DNA of 40,298 bases from Bacilli bacterium. GTDB lineage: Bacteria > Bacillota_I > Bacilli_A > RFN20 > CAG-826. Both the position numbers and the translations under genes were made by a program. The notes beneath the pieces were generated by a model that saw only the letters and a list, made by a program, of their open reading frames with translations, made no database searches and was not told the DNA's origin. Where the stretch lies: NCBI GenBank assembly GCA_017429285.1, contig JAFRPF010000001.1:1-40298 (forward strand). Direction: 5' to 3'. The stretch's first letter is position 1; each line of letters begins with the position of its first letter. Positions 928-40,298 of this stretch are shown piece after piece.

Positions 928-2022
928 CTAGTAATGGACCCTATTCTTACTAACACCGAATTGGATGAGAGTAAGTAATAAGATGACGATTAATAAGATA
1001 ACGGAACCAGCAGCCGCTCTACCGAGCGCGGATGCAGAGTTATCTTGCATATACTTATAAATGAAACCAACGATGGTAATCCATTTTGTACCATCAGTAC
1101 CACCAAAGTTAACTGGACCAGCACCGAACAAGGAAATAATTTGTGAATATGATTTCGCTGCTCCGATGAAGGATGTAACAGTGATATACAAAATCTGTGG
1201 TGATAATAATGGAACGGTAATACGGGAGAAGATTGTGAATTTAGAAGCACCATCGATTCTCGCCGCATCATAATATTGTTTATCAATTGTGGATAAGCCA
1301 CTCATAAAGACTAAGATCTTAAAAGCGATACCATTCCAAATTGAGTAGATGACGATAACGAAGAACATGCTCCATTTGCTCGCGGAAACACCTAACCAGT
1401 TAACTGGGTTAATGCCAAAGACATGTAAGAAGGTGTTAAATAATCCGCCAGGACCAGAGGAGAACATGACGTTAAAGACCATACCTAACGCAATAGCGTT
1501 AGTGACATAAGGGAGGAAGAACACTGTCTGATAGAAACCTTGTAAAGGCTTAATCGAATGCAAACAGACGGCGATAACTAAACCCACTAAGATGGTTAAC
1601 GGAACTTCGATAATAACGATTAAACCGGTATTGCCCATAGCTTGCCAGAATAATGGATCTGAGAAGACCTTGACATAGTTATCGAAACCGATTGATTGAA
1701 CAACACTACTTCTGGTATTTGACTGAGAAGCAATAAAGTTCACGATCGCTAATGAGGAGTTACTACCACCAACCCAATAGAAGTTATTGATGAAGGAGAT
1801 CATGAAGGAGTTGATGATCGGATAAATCATGAAGACGATCAAGAAGATAAGTGCTGGAATCAAAGCGATCCAACCCTTAGCCCACTCCGGCAAAATCCAC
1901 TTATGTTTTTTGACATCTAAGTAACCTTTATTAGTTACTGCATCAATATAAGGGGTGTTTAAAACCGCACTGCCGCTGGCATTGACGACGATAGTTTCAT
2001 TCCTTTCTACATTATTTGCCAT
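928..2022 (-). CDS. Sugar ABC transporter permease, MalF/UgpA-like
   Basis: First permease of the importer, 364 residues. The N-terminal ~45 residues are polar and cytoplasmic, helix 1 covers about 50-75, an extracytoplasmic stretch follows (about 80-125), and further helices continue to the C-terminus. The EAA loop is at about 252-275 (DAARIDGASKFTIFSRITVP), the coupling site for the ATPase. Length and layout fit the MalF/UgpA family, although the large periplasmic domain of E. coli MalF is absent, as usual in Firmicutes. It lies 26 nt after the ATPase gene and 15 nt before the second permease. The ATPase-permease-permease order resembles the putative sugar/glycerol-phosphate importer of mycoplasmas, but the substrate is unknown. 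Confidence 0.92.
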   Translation of the reverse strand: MANNVERNETIVVNASGSAVLNTPYIDAVTNKGYLDVKKHKWILPEWAKGWIALIPALIFLIVFMIYPIINSFMISFINNFYWVGGSNSSLAIVNFIASQSNTRSSVVQSIGFDNYVKVFSDPLFWQAMGNTGLIVIIEVPLTILVGLVIAVCLHSIKPLQGFYQTVFFLPYVTNAIALGMVFNVMFSSGPGGLFNTFLHVFGINPVNWLGVSASKWSMFFVIVIYSIWNGIAFKILVFMSGLSTIDKQYYDAARIDGASKFTIFSRITVPLLSPQILYITVTSFIGAAKSYSQIISLFGAGPVNFGGTDGTKWITIVGFIYKYMQDNSASALGRAAAGSVILLIVILLLTLIQFGVSKNRVHY

Positions 2023-2048
2023 AATTAATTAACCAAATAACTTAAAAG

Positions 2049-3545
2049 TTATTTAATCCTTTCTCCAGATTCTTCAAAGACGTAGAAACGTTTTGGAGCG
2101 AATCTGAGTTCTTCTTTGCCAACAACATCAGCCCAAGATTCACTTGGAATGATGATTTTCATACCTGATTCTTGGCCTTTTACACGACCGATAACGGAGA
2201 CGTCACGACCAACGTGTTGGACGAATTGAACGTCGATTGGTAATTTACCTTTCTTATCGTAAGTAAAGGCTTCTGGTCTAACACCAATTTTGACGGTGCG
2301 GTCTTTCTTGACCACTTCTTCATCTTCTCTAACGATTTCTAGTTCAGGATTTTCTAAAGCTTTGATTTGGCTCTTCTCTAAACCTTCAAGTCTTTCTGGA
2401 TGATCCGCTAAATCGGCTTGGTATTGTTCTAAGGTTTTTCTTGTACCTTTAACGAAGGTGTATTCGTGATGAATTACGCCACGATATTCCTCTTTGTATT
2501 TAGGATCGGTATCAAAGACTTCTCCAGCGACATATAATTTGCCATCTTTAATTTCACCATCAAAGATGTTGATAGCAGGAGAACCTAAGAATTTAGCGAC
2601 GAATAAGTTAATTGGCTCGTCATAAACTGTTTGAGGTTCATCGATTTGTTGGATGACACCAAAGTTCATGACAACGATAACATCGGAAATGGACATAGCT
2701 TCTTCTTGGTCATGGGTGACGAAGATTGTGGTAATACCAGTTTCCTTTTGAATACGTCTAATTTCTTCACGAGTTTGAAGTCTTAAACGAGCATCTAAGT
2801 TAGATAATGGTTCGTCAAGTAATAAGACACGTGGAGATTTAGCAAGAGCACGAGCGATAGCCACACGTTGTTGTTGACCACCAGAGAGCTCTTTTGGTTT
2901 TCTCTCTAAATAAGGTTCGATATCAACGAGTCTCGCCATCTTGTGAGCGATTTCGTCTTTCTCTTCCTTAGTTAATTTCTTCTTTGTTAATTTGGCGTAG
3001 CGTTCTGGATCATCCGCTTTAATCTGTTCGAGTTCAGCGGTGGCCTTTTGTAAGGCTTCGTTAGCAGCTTCGACTTCTTTTTGAGCCTCTTCCACTACCT
3101 TTTGTGCTTCGCCAACATCTCCGCCGTTTTTCGCAGCGGCTTCTAAGGCCTTATGAGCCTTCTTTAATGATGAGTTCGCTTCTTTCACTCTTGTCTTATA
3201 TCCATCAAGAGGATGTGGGAAACGAACGTTGTCAAGTGGGAAGGTGATATTCTGTTTCACAGAAAAATGAGGATATAAAGCGTAGTTTTGGAAAACTAGA
3301 CCAATACCCCTATTCTCTGGTGGAACGTTAGTAACATCTTCATCACCGAACCAAATGTGTCCGTCAGTTGGTTTGTGTAAACCCGCAATCATATAAAGGG
3401 TTGTTGATTTACCACAACCGGAAGGACCAAGTAAACCGACGAGTTTGCCATCAGGCACAACAAAAGACATGTCGTTAACGGCGGTAGTCTTGGAACCTTT
3501 CTTACCAACGAAAGTTTTGGTAAGATGTTCAATTCTTACTTCCAT
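2049..3545 (-). CDS. ABC importer ATPase, MalK/UgpC-like, with a coiled-coil insert
   Basis: Energises the two adjacent permeases. At 498 residues it is well above the usual ~365-380 of MalK/MsmK/UgpC. Seen: Walker A at 40-48 (GPSGCGKST), Q-loop Gln86, signature LSGGQ at 220-224, Walker B LLLDEP at 241-246, D-loop SNLD, switch His278, then a TOBE-like regulatory domain. The extra length is in two places: an Ala/Glu/Lys-rich, heptad-like segment at about 108-193 between the Q-loop and the signature, and a charged stretch at about 345-415 inside the C-terminal domain. The catalytic residues are intact, so it should be active. Enlarged ATPases of this kind are known in mycoplasma homologues. AAAGGAG precedes the ATG. 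It is the first gene of the operon. Confidence 0.93.
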   Translation of the reverse strand: MEVRIEHLTKTFVGKKGSKTTAVNDMSFVVPDGKLVGLLGPSGCGKSTTLYMIAGLHKPTDGHIWFGDEDVTNVPPENRGIGLVFQNYALYPHFSVKQNITFPLDNVRFPHPLDGYKTRVKEANSSLKKAHKALEAAAKNGGDVGEAQKVVEEAQKEVEAANEALQKATAELEQIKADDPERYAKLTKKKLTKEEKDEIAHKMARLVDIEPYLERKPKELSGGQQQRVAIARALAKSPRVLLLDEPLSNLDARLRLQTREEIRRIQKETGITTIFVTHDQEEAMSISDVIVVMNFGVIQQIDEPQTVYDEPINLFVAKFLGSPAINIFDGEIKDGKLYVAGEVFDTDPKYKEEYRGVIHHEYTFVKGTRKTLEQYQADLADHPERLEGLEKSQIKALENPELEIVREDEEVVKKDRTVKIGVRPEAFTYDKKGKLPIDVQFVQHVGRDVSVIGRVKGQESGMKIIIPSESWADVVGKEELRFAPKRFYVFEESGERIK

Positions 3546-35624: not shown

Positions 35625-36758
35625 TTAGGATTGGTTTTCTGTCTTTTTTTCAATTTGTTTCACATCATTTTTATTCTTCATCAAGAATCTTTTTGGTGAA
35701 TAAGCAGTTAGATAATATCTTCCTAATGATTTAAAAATTTCTTTTGTCTTTTCTCTTCTTTTTACCGTATAAGATTTAAACTTTTTCTTGCCGTTACTAA
35801 TAATACGAGAAGCATTAAGTAATAAATCATAAATTGTTTTTGAATCACCTAAAACGTCAAATAGCACTTCGATCGCTAAACGTTTATCTTCATCGCTTTC
35901 ATTAGTGAGCCAGTTCATCATCGCTTCTTCACTTTTTCTGGAAGAAAATGATCTAGCTCTAGTATAGGAGAAAGTCATATTATGATAATTAACCATCCAT
36001 TTAAAAGGATCGTGCCCACCTAATAGAACACCTGTTGAATATACAATCTTCGCATTAGAAGCGTGATTATAAACCACACCGATAACATCATGAGTGGTTA
36101 AATACTTTTCTAATTTATCTTTAATACGATTAAACGAATCTAATTTTTCAACATCTTCTTTTAAACCTGGACCATCAAATGTATAAGCTTTAATTAATCT
36201 TTCTTCTAATTTTTCTCCCATAAATAAGACGGCGCACATGGCTAGATAGCCACCTTTAGAATGACCACCAACATAAAATTTACCTTTAAATAAAGTAGTG
36301 GCTGTTCTTATATATTCCACTGCTAAGTCTTTACTTGGCATTGCTTCTTCATAAACCAAAGATAATGATTCTTTCCACCCCAATAAAGAAGTATCCGTGC
36401 CACGATAAGCTATATAAGCAACATGATTAGGAAGGAGTAAAGTCATCGCAAAAAATTGCTTTCTACTTTCATGATTATTTAATAATTTACAATATCCAAT
36501 TTTTACATTTTGGTAGCGTTTAGATTTCATCATCGCTTCTAATAATTTCTTATTATTTTTCGCGTCAACACTGCCATAATAAAAAGCTTTGGAATCTTTA
36601 ATCTTTAAATCTTTGATTTTAATAAAATCAGTGGAGTCGATTTCTAGATCAAAATTAATATATGAAAGTTCAGAAAATATTAAAGAATCTATCTCGTTAA
36701 AAGGTAGTTCTTTAAATTCTTTGTTACCAAAACTTTTCACATATTGGGTAATATTCAT
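35625..36758 (-). CDS. Mbeg1-like (DUF2974) lipase-fold hydrolase
   Basis: 377 residues. The nucleophile elbow GGHSKGGYLAM (about 173-183) and the YIAYRGTDTSLLGWKE block (about 110-125) match the Mbeg1-like/DUF2974 group of lipase-class-3-like proteins. Basic C-terminal ~70 residues. Substrate unknown. No Shine-Dalgarno is seen; TATAAT stands 6 nt before the ATG. It is separated from the end of the Rnf operon by only 26 nt, with no clear terminator, so readthrough is possible. Confidence 0.82.
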   Translation of the reverse strand: MNITQYVKSFGNKEFKELPFNEIDSLIFSELSYINFDLEIDSTDFIKIKDLKIKDSKAFYYGSVDAKNNKKLLEAMMKSKRYQNVKIGYCKLLNNHESRKQFFAMTLLLPNHVAYIAYRGTDTSLLGWKESLSLVYEEAMPSKDLAVEYIRTATTLFKGKFYVGGHSKGGYLAMCAVLFMGEKLEERLIKAYTFDGPGLKEDVEKLDSFNRIKDKLEKYLTTHDVIGVVYNHASNAKIVYSTGVLLGGHDPFKWMVNYHNMTFSYTRARSFSSRKSEEAMMNWLTNESDEDKRLAIEVLFDVLGDSKTIYDLLLNASRIISNGKKKFKSYTVKRREKTKEIFKSLGRYYLTAYSPKRFLMKNKNDVKQIEKKTENQS

Positions 36759-36784: not shown

Positions 36785-37303
36785 TTAAAAGTTATGCTTT
36801 TCTCTAATTTTTCTAATTGCCCCAGTTTTAATGATTAATGAGGCCACTATTCCCACAAATACACCGGTAATAATCGCTGATAAAGCAATGACAGGTAAAT
36901 AATAAATGACATATCCAGTTTCTAAAAATATCATCGCAATTAATATTTGACCGATGACATGTAATAATGATCCGATAACACTTACTCCAATAATGGAGAA
37001 TTTTTTAATTAATAGATAGAAAAGAATCATAATTCCTAAGGAAAATATCGCTCCAGTTAAAGACATTAAAAATCCCATAGTAAATAAAGATCCTCTTAAT
37101 AGGCCCACCAAAAAGACTCTTAAAAAATCAACAATAATAGCTTCCACAATACCTAACTCATAAAGAGTTAATATAATAACGATGTTTGCTAAACCTAATT
37201 TAATTCCTGGTATGCCGATACTTGGAATAAAAGATTCAATAATCGCAATGACTATGGCTCCAGCTGTTAATACACCTGTTAAGGCAATCTTATAAGTATT
37301 CAT
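36785..37303 (-). CDS. Gx transporter family membrane protein (Hpre_diP_synt_I)
   Basis: 172 residues from MNTYKIALTG, five or six helices, ECF-S-component-like. The frame is open to 37366, but GGAG before the ATG at 37303 and the domain start decide the shorter form. The signature GIKLGLANIVIILTLYELG (about 33-51) is typical of the family formerly called heptaprenyl diphosphate synthase component I. Last gene of the Rnf operon, one base after the NusG_II gene. The substrate is unknown; a link to electron carriers is suggested by context. Confidence 0.85.
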   Translation of the reverse strand: MNTYKIALTGVLTAGAIVIAIIESFIPSIGIPGIKLGLANIVIILTLYELGIVEAIIVDFLRVFLVGLLRGSLFTMGFLMSLTGAIFSLGIMILFYLLIKKFSIIGVSVIGSLLHVIGQILIAMIFLETGYVIYYLPVIALSAIITGVFVGIVASLIIKTGAIRKIREKHNF

Positions 37304-37304
37304 C

Positions 37305-37679
37305 TTATATCTCCACATCAACATTACTAGCGCCTTCGATGGCGATATAAACAGCGTTATAAGCACAAATTATTGGTTTATTGGTTTCATGAACATATCC
37401 CATTTTCACACAATCTTGATGCGGGCAATTAGATTCAACTATGGCAATCGCTCCATCTTTGGTGTGAACATGTAATTCACCATTTAATCCTTTAATAAAA
37501 TAATCATGTTCTTCCTTTTTGGATAAATCGATCGTCTCCACGACATTATTTTGAACAGATATTTTAGCAATCAAATTATTGGTTTTTCTTAACGATAAAA
37601 CTAGCGCTAAAGAAACCGCTGCTACGGTAATTAAAGAAAGGATAAGTATTAAATCATTTCTTAACGTTTTCTTATTCAT
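37305..37679 (-). CDS. NusG domain II-containing membrane-anchored protein
   Basis: 124 residues: N-terminal anchor helix (about 9-30), then an extracytoplasmic NusG_II domain with NCPHQDC (Cys85, Cys90) and Cys105 in PIICAYNAVYIAI, the usual spacing for this family. Despite the name it is unrelated to transcription. It overlaps the apbE stop by one base (TGATG). Such proteins commonly accompany Gx-type membrane proteins and ApbE; a role in maturing a redox protein outside the membrane is inferred. Confidence 0.85.
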   Translation of the reverse strand: MNKKTLRNDLILILSLITVAAVSLALVLSLRKTNNLIAKISVQNNVVETIDLSKKEEHDYFIKGLNGELHVHTKDGAIAIVESNCPHQDCVKMGYVHETNKPIICAYNAVYIAIEGASNVDVEI

Positions 37680-38629
37680 CAGCGGCTAAAAACCTCAATA
37701 CTTTCATTTTTATATTTTATTTCATTATCTTTGATAACTAATACTTTCACATCTTCATCTTTTTCGATTTGTTTAATCTCATCAATAGAAGAAAACATCA
37801 TCGATGTAGATAAGGCATCTCCTAAAGCCCCATTATTAGAAATTACAATAACAGCATCATATAAATTGATCGCTGATCCATCAAATGGATTAATGATATG
37901 AGAATAAGTAATATCACCAATTTTCACACCTTGCAAAGAAGTCGCAGATGTAGAGACAAAACAATTCTTCGCTTTGATATATTTATTATCCAAATCAGAA
38001 ATACCAATAGAGAATAAACCGTCTTTATTTTTCTTCTCTCCTAATAATAAAGAAGAGGAACCACCATTAACGAGATAACTTTTAATATTTTGACTTTTTA
38101 AATAATCTTTGGCCTTATCCAAAGCATATCCTTTAGCGATGCCGCCTAAATCAATTTCAGCCTCTCCATTTCTTTGAATAATATTATTTTCTTTAAAGTC
38201 TAAAGAAGATGAATTTATCTTCAAAATCTCTTCATTTTTGATGTTTTCATCAAGGATATGCTTGCTTTTTAAGCTTTCTTTCCATTTATTCGCTAATGAA
38301 CCACATAGAGGATTAAAGTATTTTGCGCCATGGTTTTTAACGTCAAAAGAAGTCTTTAATAAATCATATAATTCACTAGATACAGTGATCTCTTCATTGC
38401 TCCTATTAATCTTATAAACATTCACTAAATCGTTATCATTGTAGTTATCACTAATCTTGGAATAATAAGTAAAAGATTTTTCTAGTTCTAAAATATTGTC
38501 TTTATTACCTTCATAAAGGGAAGTAGAAATATAGGTATCAAAACAAAAAACCTTGCTCTCAATAACTTTTGACGCTTGGGAACAAGATACTAAAGATATA
38601 ACGAATAAAGATAAAATTTTTTTCTTCAT
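37679..38629 (-). CDS. apbE: FMN transferase ApbE, lipoprotein
   Basis: Attaches FMN covalently to Thr of flavoproteins outside the membrane, here most likely RnfG and RnfD (expected off the right edge). 316 residues; signal peptide with lipobox LVSC (lipidated Cys16). Family motifs: DLGGIAKGYALDKA near 157-170 (FAD-binding), YLVNGGSSSLLLG near 181-193, and STSATSLQG near 227-235. Only 1 nt follows rnfB. Confidence 0.92.
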   Translation of the reverse strand: MKKKILSLFVISLVSCSQASKVIESKVFCFDTYISTSLYEGNKDNILELEKSFTYYSKISDNYNDNDLVNVYKINRSNEEITVSSELYDLLKTSFDVKNHGAKYFNPLCGSLANKWKESLKSKHILDENIKNEEILKINSSSLDFKENNIIQRNGEAEIDLGGIAKGYALDKAKDYLKSQNIKSYLVNGGSSSLLLGEKKNKDGLFSIGISDLDNKYIKAKNCFVSTSATSLQGVKIGDITYSHIINPFDGSAINLYDAVIVISNNGALGDALSTSMMFSSIDEIKQIEKDEDVKVLVIKDNEIKYKNESIEVFSR

Positions 38630-39145: not shown

Positions 39146-39741
39146 AATTGAATACCTGAGAATAAGCCTTGTAAACCAATAAAGGCTAACGCCATAATCG
39201 CCGCGGTAATAAGAGCGATTGGTAAGCCTTTAAAAGCTTTTGGTGTATTAGCGCTTTCAAGTCTCACTCTGATACAAGAGAAGACCACGATAATGGCTAA
39301 AAAACCAACGGAAGTACCGATACCATTAGCTAAAGATTGAAGGAAAGTAAAACCTTGATCGGTATTACCTTGAGCGACACCTAAAACCGCACAGTTTGTG
39401 GTAATTAATGGTAGATAAATACCTAAGTTCTTATATAAAGTTGGTGAAAATTTCTTAATGAATAATCCCACTAATTGAACTAATGAAGCAATAACTAAGA
39501 TATAAGCCACCGTATCCATAAATGCGATACCAGCGGGCACTAAAATAAAGTTATATAAAGGCCAACAAATTAAAGTCGCTAAGATGATGACAAAGACAAC
39601 GGCAATACCCATGCCTAAAGAAGATTTCACTTTTTTAGAAACACCTAGGAATGGACAGATACCATAGAATCTAGATAAAACAACATTATCGATTAACATG
39701 CTAGAGATAATCGCTAAGATAAATGAAACAAAAATACTCAT
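39142..39741 (-). CDS. rnfA: Rnf complex subunit RnfA
   Basis: Ion-translocating membrane subunit, 199 residues, six helices. The family blocks are clear: IDNVVLSRFYGICPFLGVSK near 17-36 and LGIYLPLITTNCAVLGVAQG near 105-124, the latter with the conserved Cys of the membrane 2Fe-2S centre shared with RnfE. GGAGGTAATAA precedes the ATG, which overlaps the rnfE stop. Confidence 0.95.
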   Translation of the reverse strand: MSIFVSFILAIISSMLIDNVVLSRFYGICPFLGVSKKVKSSLGMGIAVVFVIILATLICWPLYNFILVPAGIAFMDTVAYILVIASLVQLVGLFIKKFSPTLYKNLGIYLPLITTNCAVLGVAQGNTDQGFTFLQSLANGIGTSVGFLAIIVVFSCIRVRLESANTPKAFKGLPIALITAAIMALAFIGLQGLFSGIQL

Positions 39742-40298
39742 TATTTATTACCTCCATCAGTGTTAGCTTGTTGAGCGGCTAAAGCTTCCTGCTGTTTTTT
39801 AATCTTTTCTTGTTTAACAAGATAAGCCTTATATTCATCTTTTCTATTCTTAATAAAAGCTAAGACCGCTAGGATCAAACCAAAGACGATAAAAGCACCA
39901 ACAGGATTAGAGAATAAACTGATTGTGTATGGAGCAGGAATAATCGTTAATTTAGCCTTTGGAATAAAGGTAAAGATTTGACCAATAGTAAAGCCACCTG
40001 TACCTAATAATTCTCTAAAGAAGGCCATCGATAATAAAGCTAAGGTATAACCAACGCCCATACCTAAAGCATCGATTAAGGAATCAAAGACTTTATTTTT
40101 GCTAGCGTAGGCTTCCGCTCTACCTAAAACGATACAGTTAACAACGATTAAAGAGATAAAGACACCTAATGATGAATATAATTCTGGTAAAAATGCATTA
40201 GTGAGCATCTTAACAATGGTGACGAATGTCGCGATTATAACAATATAAGCTGGAGTTCTAATTTCTTCAGGAATTAATTTTCTTAATAAAGAAACAAG
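39741..40298 (-). CDS. rnfE: Rnf complex subunit RnfE (partial, runs off right edge)
   Basis: Paired membrane subunit of RnfA. The frame is open to the last base, giving 185 residues; the start is outside the window, since reading upstream of the in-frame ATG at 40208 gives RnfE-like IPEEIRTPAYIVIIATFVT without a stop. The inverse-topology motif SSLGVFISLIVVNCIVLGRA (with the conserved Cys) and GMGVGYTLALLSMAFFRELLG are seen. A Gln/Ala-rich cytoplasmic tail ends the protein. The rest of the operon (rnfC, rnfD, rnfG) probably lies further right. Confidence 0.95.
   Translation of the reverse strand, partial: LVSLLRKLIPEEIRTPAYIVIIATFVTIVKMLTNAFLPELYSSLGVFISLIVVNCIVLGRAEAYASKNKVFDSLIDALGMGVGYTLALLSMAFFRELLGTGGFTIGQIFTFIPKAKLTIIPAPYTISLFSNPVGAFIVFGLILAVLAFIKNRKDEYKAYLVKQEKIKKQQEALAAQQANTDGGNK

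Follow-up and report, generated by a model that had tools for sequence, protein, structure and literature searches.

An Rnf operon of an uncultured Bacilli bacterium with a predicted flavin-supply cassette at its tail and a short RnfB accompanied by p64

The Rnf operon and its tail genes

The window, by which we mean the whole stretch of 40,298 nucleotides analysed here, is part of contig C3 in an assembly of 1.26 Mb, and its last genes belong to an Rnf operon (Table 1). ORFs on the contig past the window, to position 43423, complete RnfE (246 aa) and add RnfG (189 aa), RnfD (373 aa) and RnfC (433 aa), all upstream of RnfA. Window and contig ORFs together give the order C-D-G-E-A-p64-B-ApbE-EetA-EetB, with Rnf subunits A, B, C, D, E and G all within one operon. 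An earlier sequence-only reading had placed ApbE, a NusG_II protein (here EetA) and a Gx membrane protein (here EetB) contiguously after rnfB at the tail of an Rnf operon; the ORFs and Pfam matches agree with this placement, and rnfCDGEA-B is complete on the contig. The curated Pfam cut-offs were exceeded by ApbE (PF02424), NusG_II (PF07009) and Hpre_diP_synt_I (PF07456), and a six-frame search of the genome found one PF07009 place, the EetA gene of the window.

Table 1. Genes of the Rnf operon within the window (coordinates are window positions)
Feature	Coordinates	Strand	Basis and description
EetB/Gx-type membrane protein, 171 aa	36785..37300	minus	Pfam PF07456 8.6e-39, AlphaFold2 model and PDB matches; predicted ECF-S flavin (FAD) export subunit
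EetA-type protein, 124 aa	37305..37679	minus	PF07009 3.1e-22; N-terminal TM helix and extracytoplasmic NusG domain II with three Cys
ApbE flavin transferase, 316 aa	37679..38629	minus	PF02424 1.2e-42 and motifs
Short RnfB, 105 aa	38631..38948	minus	TIGR01944 partial match, 70.1 bits; TM and one C-x2-C-x4-C-x17-C cluster box
p64, 64 aa	38951..39145	minus	One TM, then P-x-G-C...C-x2-C-x4-C; homologues kept directly after rnfA
RnfA, 199 aa	39142..39741	minus	TIGR01943 4.8e-70, above cut-off
RnfE, 3' part	39741..40298	minus	PF02508 5.2e-42; runs on to contig position 40481

The tail genes had been described as joined by overlaps or 1-nt gaps, which is accurate for rnfB and ApbE (1-nt gap) and for ApbE and EetA (1-nt overlap), but EetA and EetB are separated by 4 nt. 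The ORF caller puts the start of EetB at a GTG at 37366; we prefer the ATG at 37300, from which the 4-nt gap follows, because it fits the homologues. The order RnfA/p64/RnfB/ApbE/EetA/EetB is repeated in relatives, and the arrangement is therefore not due to chance. An Mbeg1-like alpha/beta hydrolase gene (35625-36758) lies on the same strand 26 bases downstream of EetB and may be co-transcribed. A promoter and terminator scan returned promoters under the shuffle level and, among the terminators listed, no minus-strand one beyond EetB.

Probable flavin supply and attachment

EetB scored 133.3 bits against PF07456, for which the cut-off is 30. Its AlphaFold2 model, built from 33 sequences, had a mean pLDDT of 94.3 and a pTM of 0.87, and in a Foldseek comparison with the PDB the 13 best matches by E-value were all ECF S-components, RibU first (TM 0.54-0.72, prob 0.94-1.00, E 0.005-0.5). 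A single ECF-T place was found in the genome (PF02361, 7.8e-40). In a Listeria study, EetB, a PF07456 protein, was found to be similar to the substrate-binding subunits of ECF transporters; it pulls down FAD, and PplA flavinylation depends on it when external FAD is absent (PMC9973259). The window's EetB is thus most likely an ECF-S-type subunit, predicted by analogy to bind and export FAD. The sequence-only reading had given neither EetA nor EetB a settled role, a description which is still fair for the NusG_II protein but not for Gx, given the export role published for EetB; its suggestion of cofactor supply matches that published FAD-binding exporter subunit (PMC9973259), and nothing was found in favour of its suggestion of quinone-side chemistry. 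The family name of PF07456 would make Gx heptaprenyl diphosphate synthase component I, acting in quinone or prenyl synthesis beside Rnf. We consider this hardly credible: the model has an ECF-S fold, the published EetB, also a PF07456 protein, binds FAD and has an export phenotype (PMC9973259), and ApbE is present in 43 of 44 genomes with EetB.

This last figure comes from a phylum sample of 149 genomes, in which each listed genome belongs to the window's class or nearer. EetB was above cut-off in 44 genomes and ApbE in 44, counts which leave out G143 (EetB under cut-off) and G074, G132 and G159 (ApbE under cut-off), and EetA was found in 43 when tallied at E <= 0.001 (41 over cut-off). EetB and ApbE occurred together in 43 of the 149 (Fisher p 3.5e-35, with kinship ignored and many of the listed negatives being small genomes of two families). 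In 29 of these 43 genomes ApbE was at most 6 kb from EetB; in the other 14 it was not, and at least one of these (G058) seems to be interrupted by a contig break. EetA accompanied EetB in 42 of 44 genomes, at most 1 kb apart in 32 and away in 10. The proposed coupling to flavinylation or cofactor supply is supported by this comparison at the level of genomes, adjacency not being universal. Published counts point to the same partners: eetB was present in 4,214 of 31,910 genomes, with eetA nearby in 3,328 of the 4,214 and apbE nearby in 2,169, and Rnf was a frequent client beside eetB (572 Clostridia genomes) (PMC9973259).

The only genome with EetB and without ApbE was G164, where an open frame (L199 7945-8544) joins the start of RnfC in-frame to the end of EetB. 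This frame directly follows a serine hydroxymethyltransferase gene, which precedes rnfC in related loci, and from its make-up it looks like what remains after the operon was deleted in one block, or else like an assembly error with the same appearance. The EetA-EetB pair was therefore not as common without a flavinylating enzyme as with one: ApbE was present in 43 of 44 genomes with EetB, and the exception is an apparent deletion remnant. The cassette might still be a passenger, co-transcribed with Rnf by descent and with no functional coupling, since its placement relative to Rnf varies and EetA-EetB lie elsewhere in some genomes. ApbE, EetA and EetB are far apart in G120 and G137, and a search of G120 for an Rnf/Nqr A subunit found none; in several f20 genomes EetA-EetB are away from ApbE, and at the single scanned locus (L079) they sit among MatE, helicase and radical-SAM genes. 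We regard such a passenger as very improbable, given the near-perfect co-occurrence of EetB and ApbE, the loss of the G164 operon as one block, and the retention of the same partners in differing orders (EetA-EetB-ApbE in L045 and L048; ApbE-EetA-EetB ahead of RnfC in L133 and L134).

ApbE carries a lipobox-like LVSC near its N-terminus and the motifs DLGGIAKG and DALST, which we take to be those of ApbE flavin transferases. Acceptor-like D-x-x-x-G-A-T stretches are present in RnfG (DVKCGAT) and RnfD (DAAAGAT); the Thr is kept in both, and C and A stand at the position where the usual ApbE acceptor motif has S/T. The regular expression D..xGA[TS] matched 73 of 125 RnfG frames and 38 of 110 RnfD frames. 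Some RnfD frames, in L043, L048, L051 and others, measure 500-695 aa from stop to stop, compared to the usual ~370.

The EetA model, built from 32 sequences, had a pLDDT of 91.2 and consists of a helix (residues 3-29) followed by a beta domain, whose best PDB matches were Lin0431, the DUF1312 structures 4esn and 4obi, and NusG. Its three cysteines (NCPHQDCV...PIICAYN) lie in two loops. Their position in two loops, a weak Pfam Rieske match (E 0.046), and the retention of the second Cys by all 32 aligned EetA sequences and of the third by 31 would suit a redox-active extracytoplasmic protein, with thiol/disulfide or metal/Fe-S (Rieske-like) chemistry, in electron transfer at the outer side of Rnf. 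However, the Rieske match falls short of its cut-off, and the 50 PDB matches listed include no Rieske protein; the first Cys is replaced in several sequences, by Ser in several Acholeplasma-type rows, and Lin0431 and 4obi miss one or two of the three. Natural single-chain EetB-EetA fusions differ likewise: that at L144 8672-9658 keeps all three cysteines, and that at L081 7411-8403 keeps the third only, the first two being lost. The three cysteines noted in the sequence-only reading are thus present in the window but do not form a conserved set, and EetA is not defined by them, because they are lost in relatives and in the L081 fusion. A Rieske-like site was dropped as a defining feature in view of the Cys alignment and the listed PDB matches. 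Deletion of eetA left EET unchanged in the published work (PMC9973259), which also speaks against the redox proposal. We found no publications linking NusG_II with ApbE, or flavinylation with NusG. Because its cysteine set varies, EetA more probably serves the exporter as an accessory than takes part in redox reactions, which we judge unlikely.

Together, these data lead us to conclude, with a probability of roughly 0.85, that the three tail genes form a cassette which supplies flavin to this Rnf complex and attaches it. For our part we draw on gene identity and order, the folds of EetB and EetA, the presence of ECF-T, and co-occurrence; FAD binding and export by EetB, and flavinylation by ApbE, are taken from the Listeria work, and we infer transport and attachment in this organism from both. 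EetB would take up cytosolic FAD and, together with the ECF-T and presumed ATPases whose genes lie outside the operon, would move it to the outer membrane face. There ApbE, as an extracytoplasmic lipoprotein-like enzyme, would attach FMN from the exported FAD to a Thr of RnfG and RnfD. EetA, whose whole action we infer, would be a membrane-anchored outer-face accessory of EetB with dispensable cysteines, perhaps aiding assembly or the hand-over of flavin to ApbE. The mechanism is already published for relatives and in this respect the tail is ordinary; what the locus adds is an uncultured Bacilli genome in which a flavin exporter of the ECF type is encoded together with the Rnf pump that it is taken to serve, and a question narrowed to EetA.

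The short RnfB and p64

TIGR01944 matched the window's RnfB over model positions 4-92 of 190 only, and the protein contains no CxxCxxCxxxC motif and no C-terminal [4Fe-4S] ferredoxin domain. Every complete Bacilli-type RnfB examined was likewise without ferredoxin domains. A collection scan with the short RnfB, from which the best 80 of at least 578 confirmed matches were pooled with earlier loci, favours short RnfB by design; among the matches listed, the pooled set held 109 loci with RnfB, 104 of them non-identical, and these divided into 67 short and 37 long. The short ones (leaving out the cut L135) came from records titled Erysipelotrichaceae, Acholeplasmatales, Anaeroplasma, Bacilli, Bacillales etc., a few being titled 'bacterium' only, and the long ones from Clostridia, Spirochaetia, Omnitrophota, Planctomycetota and others. 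A pyruvate:ferredoxin oxidoreductase-type gene was found in the window's own genome, and reduced ferredoxin is therefore plausible. All eight Fer4_10 places in that genome fall within frames of at least 374 aa (small ferredoxins outside the Fer4_10 model could escape), so no separate protein stands out as a substitute for the missing RnfB domain.

The small gene between rnfA and rnfB, p64, was often found with the short RnfB. Among loci picked for a p64 homologue, p64 lay between RnfA and RnfB in 20 of 20 and RnfB was short in 19, the RnfB of the other (L033) being cut by the contig end. Loci selected by EetB (40 of 44) included nine with RnfB, which was short and accompanied by p64 in all nine. 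In the pooled set, among the matches listed, p64 was present at 60 of 67 short-RnfB loci and at 0 of 37 long-RnfB loci; without the three loci cut by contig ends (L033, L110 and L135), it was present at 59 of 64 complete short-RnfB loci. The five complete loci without it (L103, L104, L120, L124 and L126), together with a further locus sample in which 11 of 17 RnfB were short and had no adjacent p64, led us to drop the idea that short RnfB and p64 always go together. Because short RnfB without adjacent p64 exists, p64 is a frequent and not an obligate companion.

At the level of genomes, a p64 model found 40 places in 35 of 149, and in 33 of the 35 p64 lay -1 to +31 bases downstream of rnfA; G200 and G168 have a p64-like gene away from rnf genes. 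An RnfA/NqrE-type gene was present in 35 of 35 p64 genomes, and p64 was missing from 6 of 41 RnfA-type genomes (41 of the 42 listed were counted, G091 being left out for internal stops in its RnfA match). A proposed link of p64 to the conserved C-terminal tail of RnfB was dropped, as L174-L178 have the tail without p64 and some p64 loci are without the tail.

Some loci differed in other ways. In L177, an f14 Rnf cluster with a short RnfB and no adjacent p64, a [FeFe] hydrogenase large subunit (1639-3324) is encoded directly upstream of rnfC, and ORFs with ferredoxin motifs occupy the matching spot in L175 and L178. The Rnf-like clusters of L063, L071, L072, L073 and L074 are divergent: ApbE comes immediately after RnfA, and both RnfB and p64 are missing; a supposed NqrF-like gene upstream of these RnfB-less clusters is actually serine hydroxymethyltransferase.

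In searches of Pfam and NCBIfam, p64 had no match above cut-off. Its four cysteines are kept in 56, 59, 59 and 58 of 59 sequences. Aligned with RnfB profiles by hhalign (one-against-one E-value), p64 reached 92.9% over 62 columns, a span that takes in the helix and the C-x2-C-x4-C box. The other proteins of the operon did not exceed 31.6%, and the controls gave 2.5% (reversed) and up to 5% (shuffled). From this similarity we tentatively take p64 to be shortened and distantly related to the N-terminal part of RnfB; it may either carry its own Fe-S cluster or handle iron for the Rnf complex. The iron-handling reading fits a weak match to PF12669, a FeoB-associated Cys-rich membrane protein family, by 13 of 19 p64 homologues (best 8e-4), the window's p64 being unmatched. 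An association with FeoB found no support in the neighbours scanned: four orphan p64-like genes adjoin PAP2, tRNA synthetase, deaminase, DNA glycosylase or phosphoglucomutase genes and not FeoB; the single neighbours of two further orphan p64-like genes, L184 and L188, had no family match.

NqrM (DUF539), the maturation factor of the NqrD/E [2Fe-2S] cluster, is also a small, Cys-rich membrane protein encoded in its operon. Its family, PF04400, was absent from the best 25 of 31 families for 19 p64 members (E <= 10), and p64 is missing both from the RnfB-less L063 and L071-L074 and from the Nqr-like clusters L193, L194 and L198, which need the same [2Fe-2S] cluster. We therefore rejected the identification of p64 with NqrM. 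From its distribution, p64 appears to track RnfB-type Rnf and not every RnfA/E-type pair.

RnfB ferredoxin domains are regarded as the electron entry of Rnf, yet they are missing in this class sample, and p64 is mostly kept with the complex. We tentatively propose, as a possibility somewhat short of even odds, that Bacilli have a distinct Rnf entry module, in which RnfB would be a helix with a one-cluster domain and p64 a miniature RnfB-like protein, binding its own Fe-S cluster (or delivering iron or clusters) beside RnfA/E, so that soluble ferredoxin would feed the pump directly, without a multi-cluster RnfB wire. No description of p64 or the short Bacilli RnfB was found in the open-access literature covered by our searches, and it is this entry module, not the tail, that looks to be the new part. 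Should p64 prove to be a subunit or an assembly factor, a second form would have to be added to models of electron entry into Rnf, and annotation pipelines would be overlooking a subunit.

Comparison with known systems

In a review, RnfB is described with a C-terminal domain of two to seven [4Fe-4S] clusters (PMC12174285). The window's RnfB resembles that of the structurally studied Rnf in its TM helix and small, flexible one-cluster domain, and differs in the absence of the multi-cluster C-terminal domain (PMC12174285). In Clostridia Rnf operons with ApbE-EetA-EetB, RnfB is long (270-312 aa), with three ferredoxin motifs and without p64 (L131, L133, L134, L138, L147, L153 and L159), whereas that of the window, at 105 aa, has none and is accompanied by p64.

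The tail is closest to the Listeria EET locus (eetA-eetB, fmnB = ApbE, and fmnA), which has an EetB of the same Pfam family with an ECF-S fold, an EetA partner, and an ApbE that consumes the exported FAD (PMC9973259). The client here, in contrast, is Rnf, the operon is without ECF-T, and flavin export is predicted. The same ApbE-EetA-EetB cassette stands beside Rnf in Clostridia Rnf operons, as it does here.
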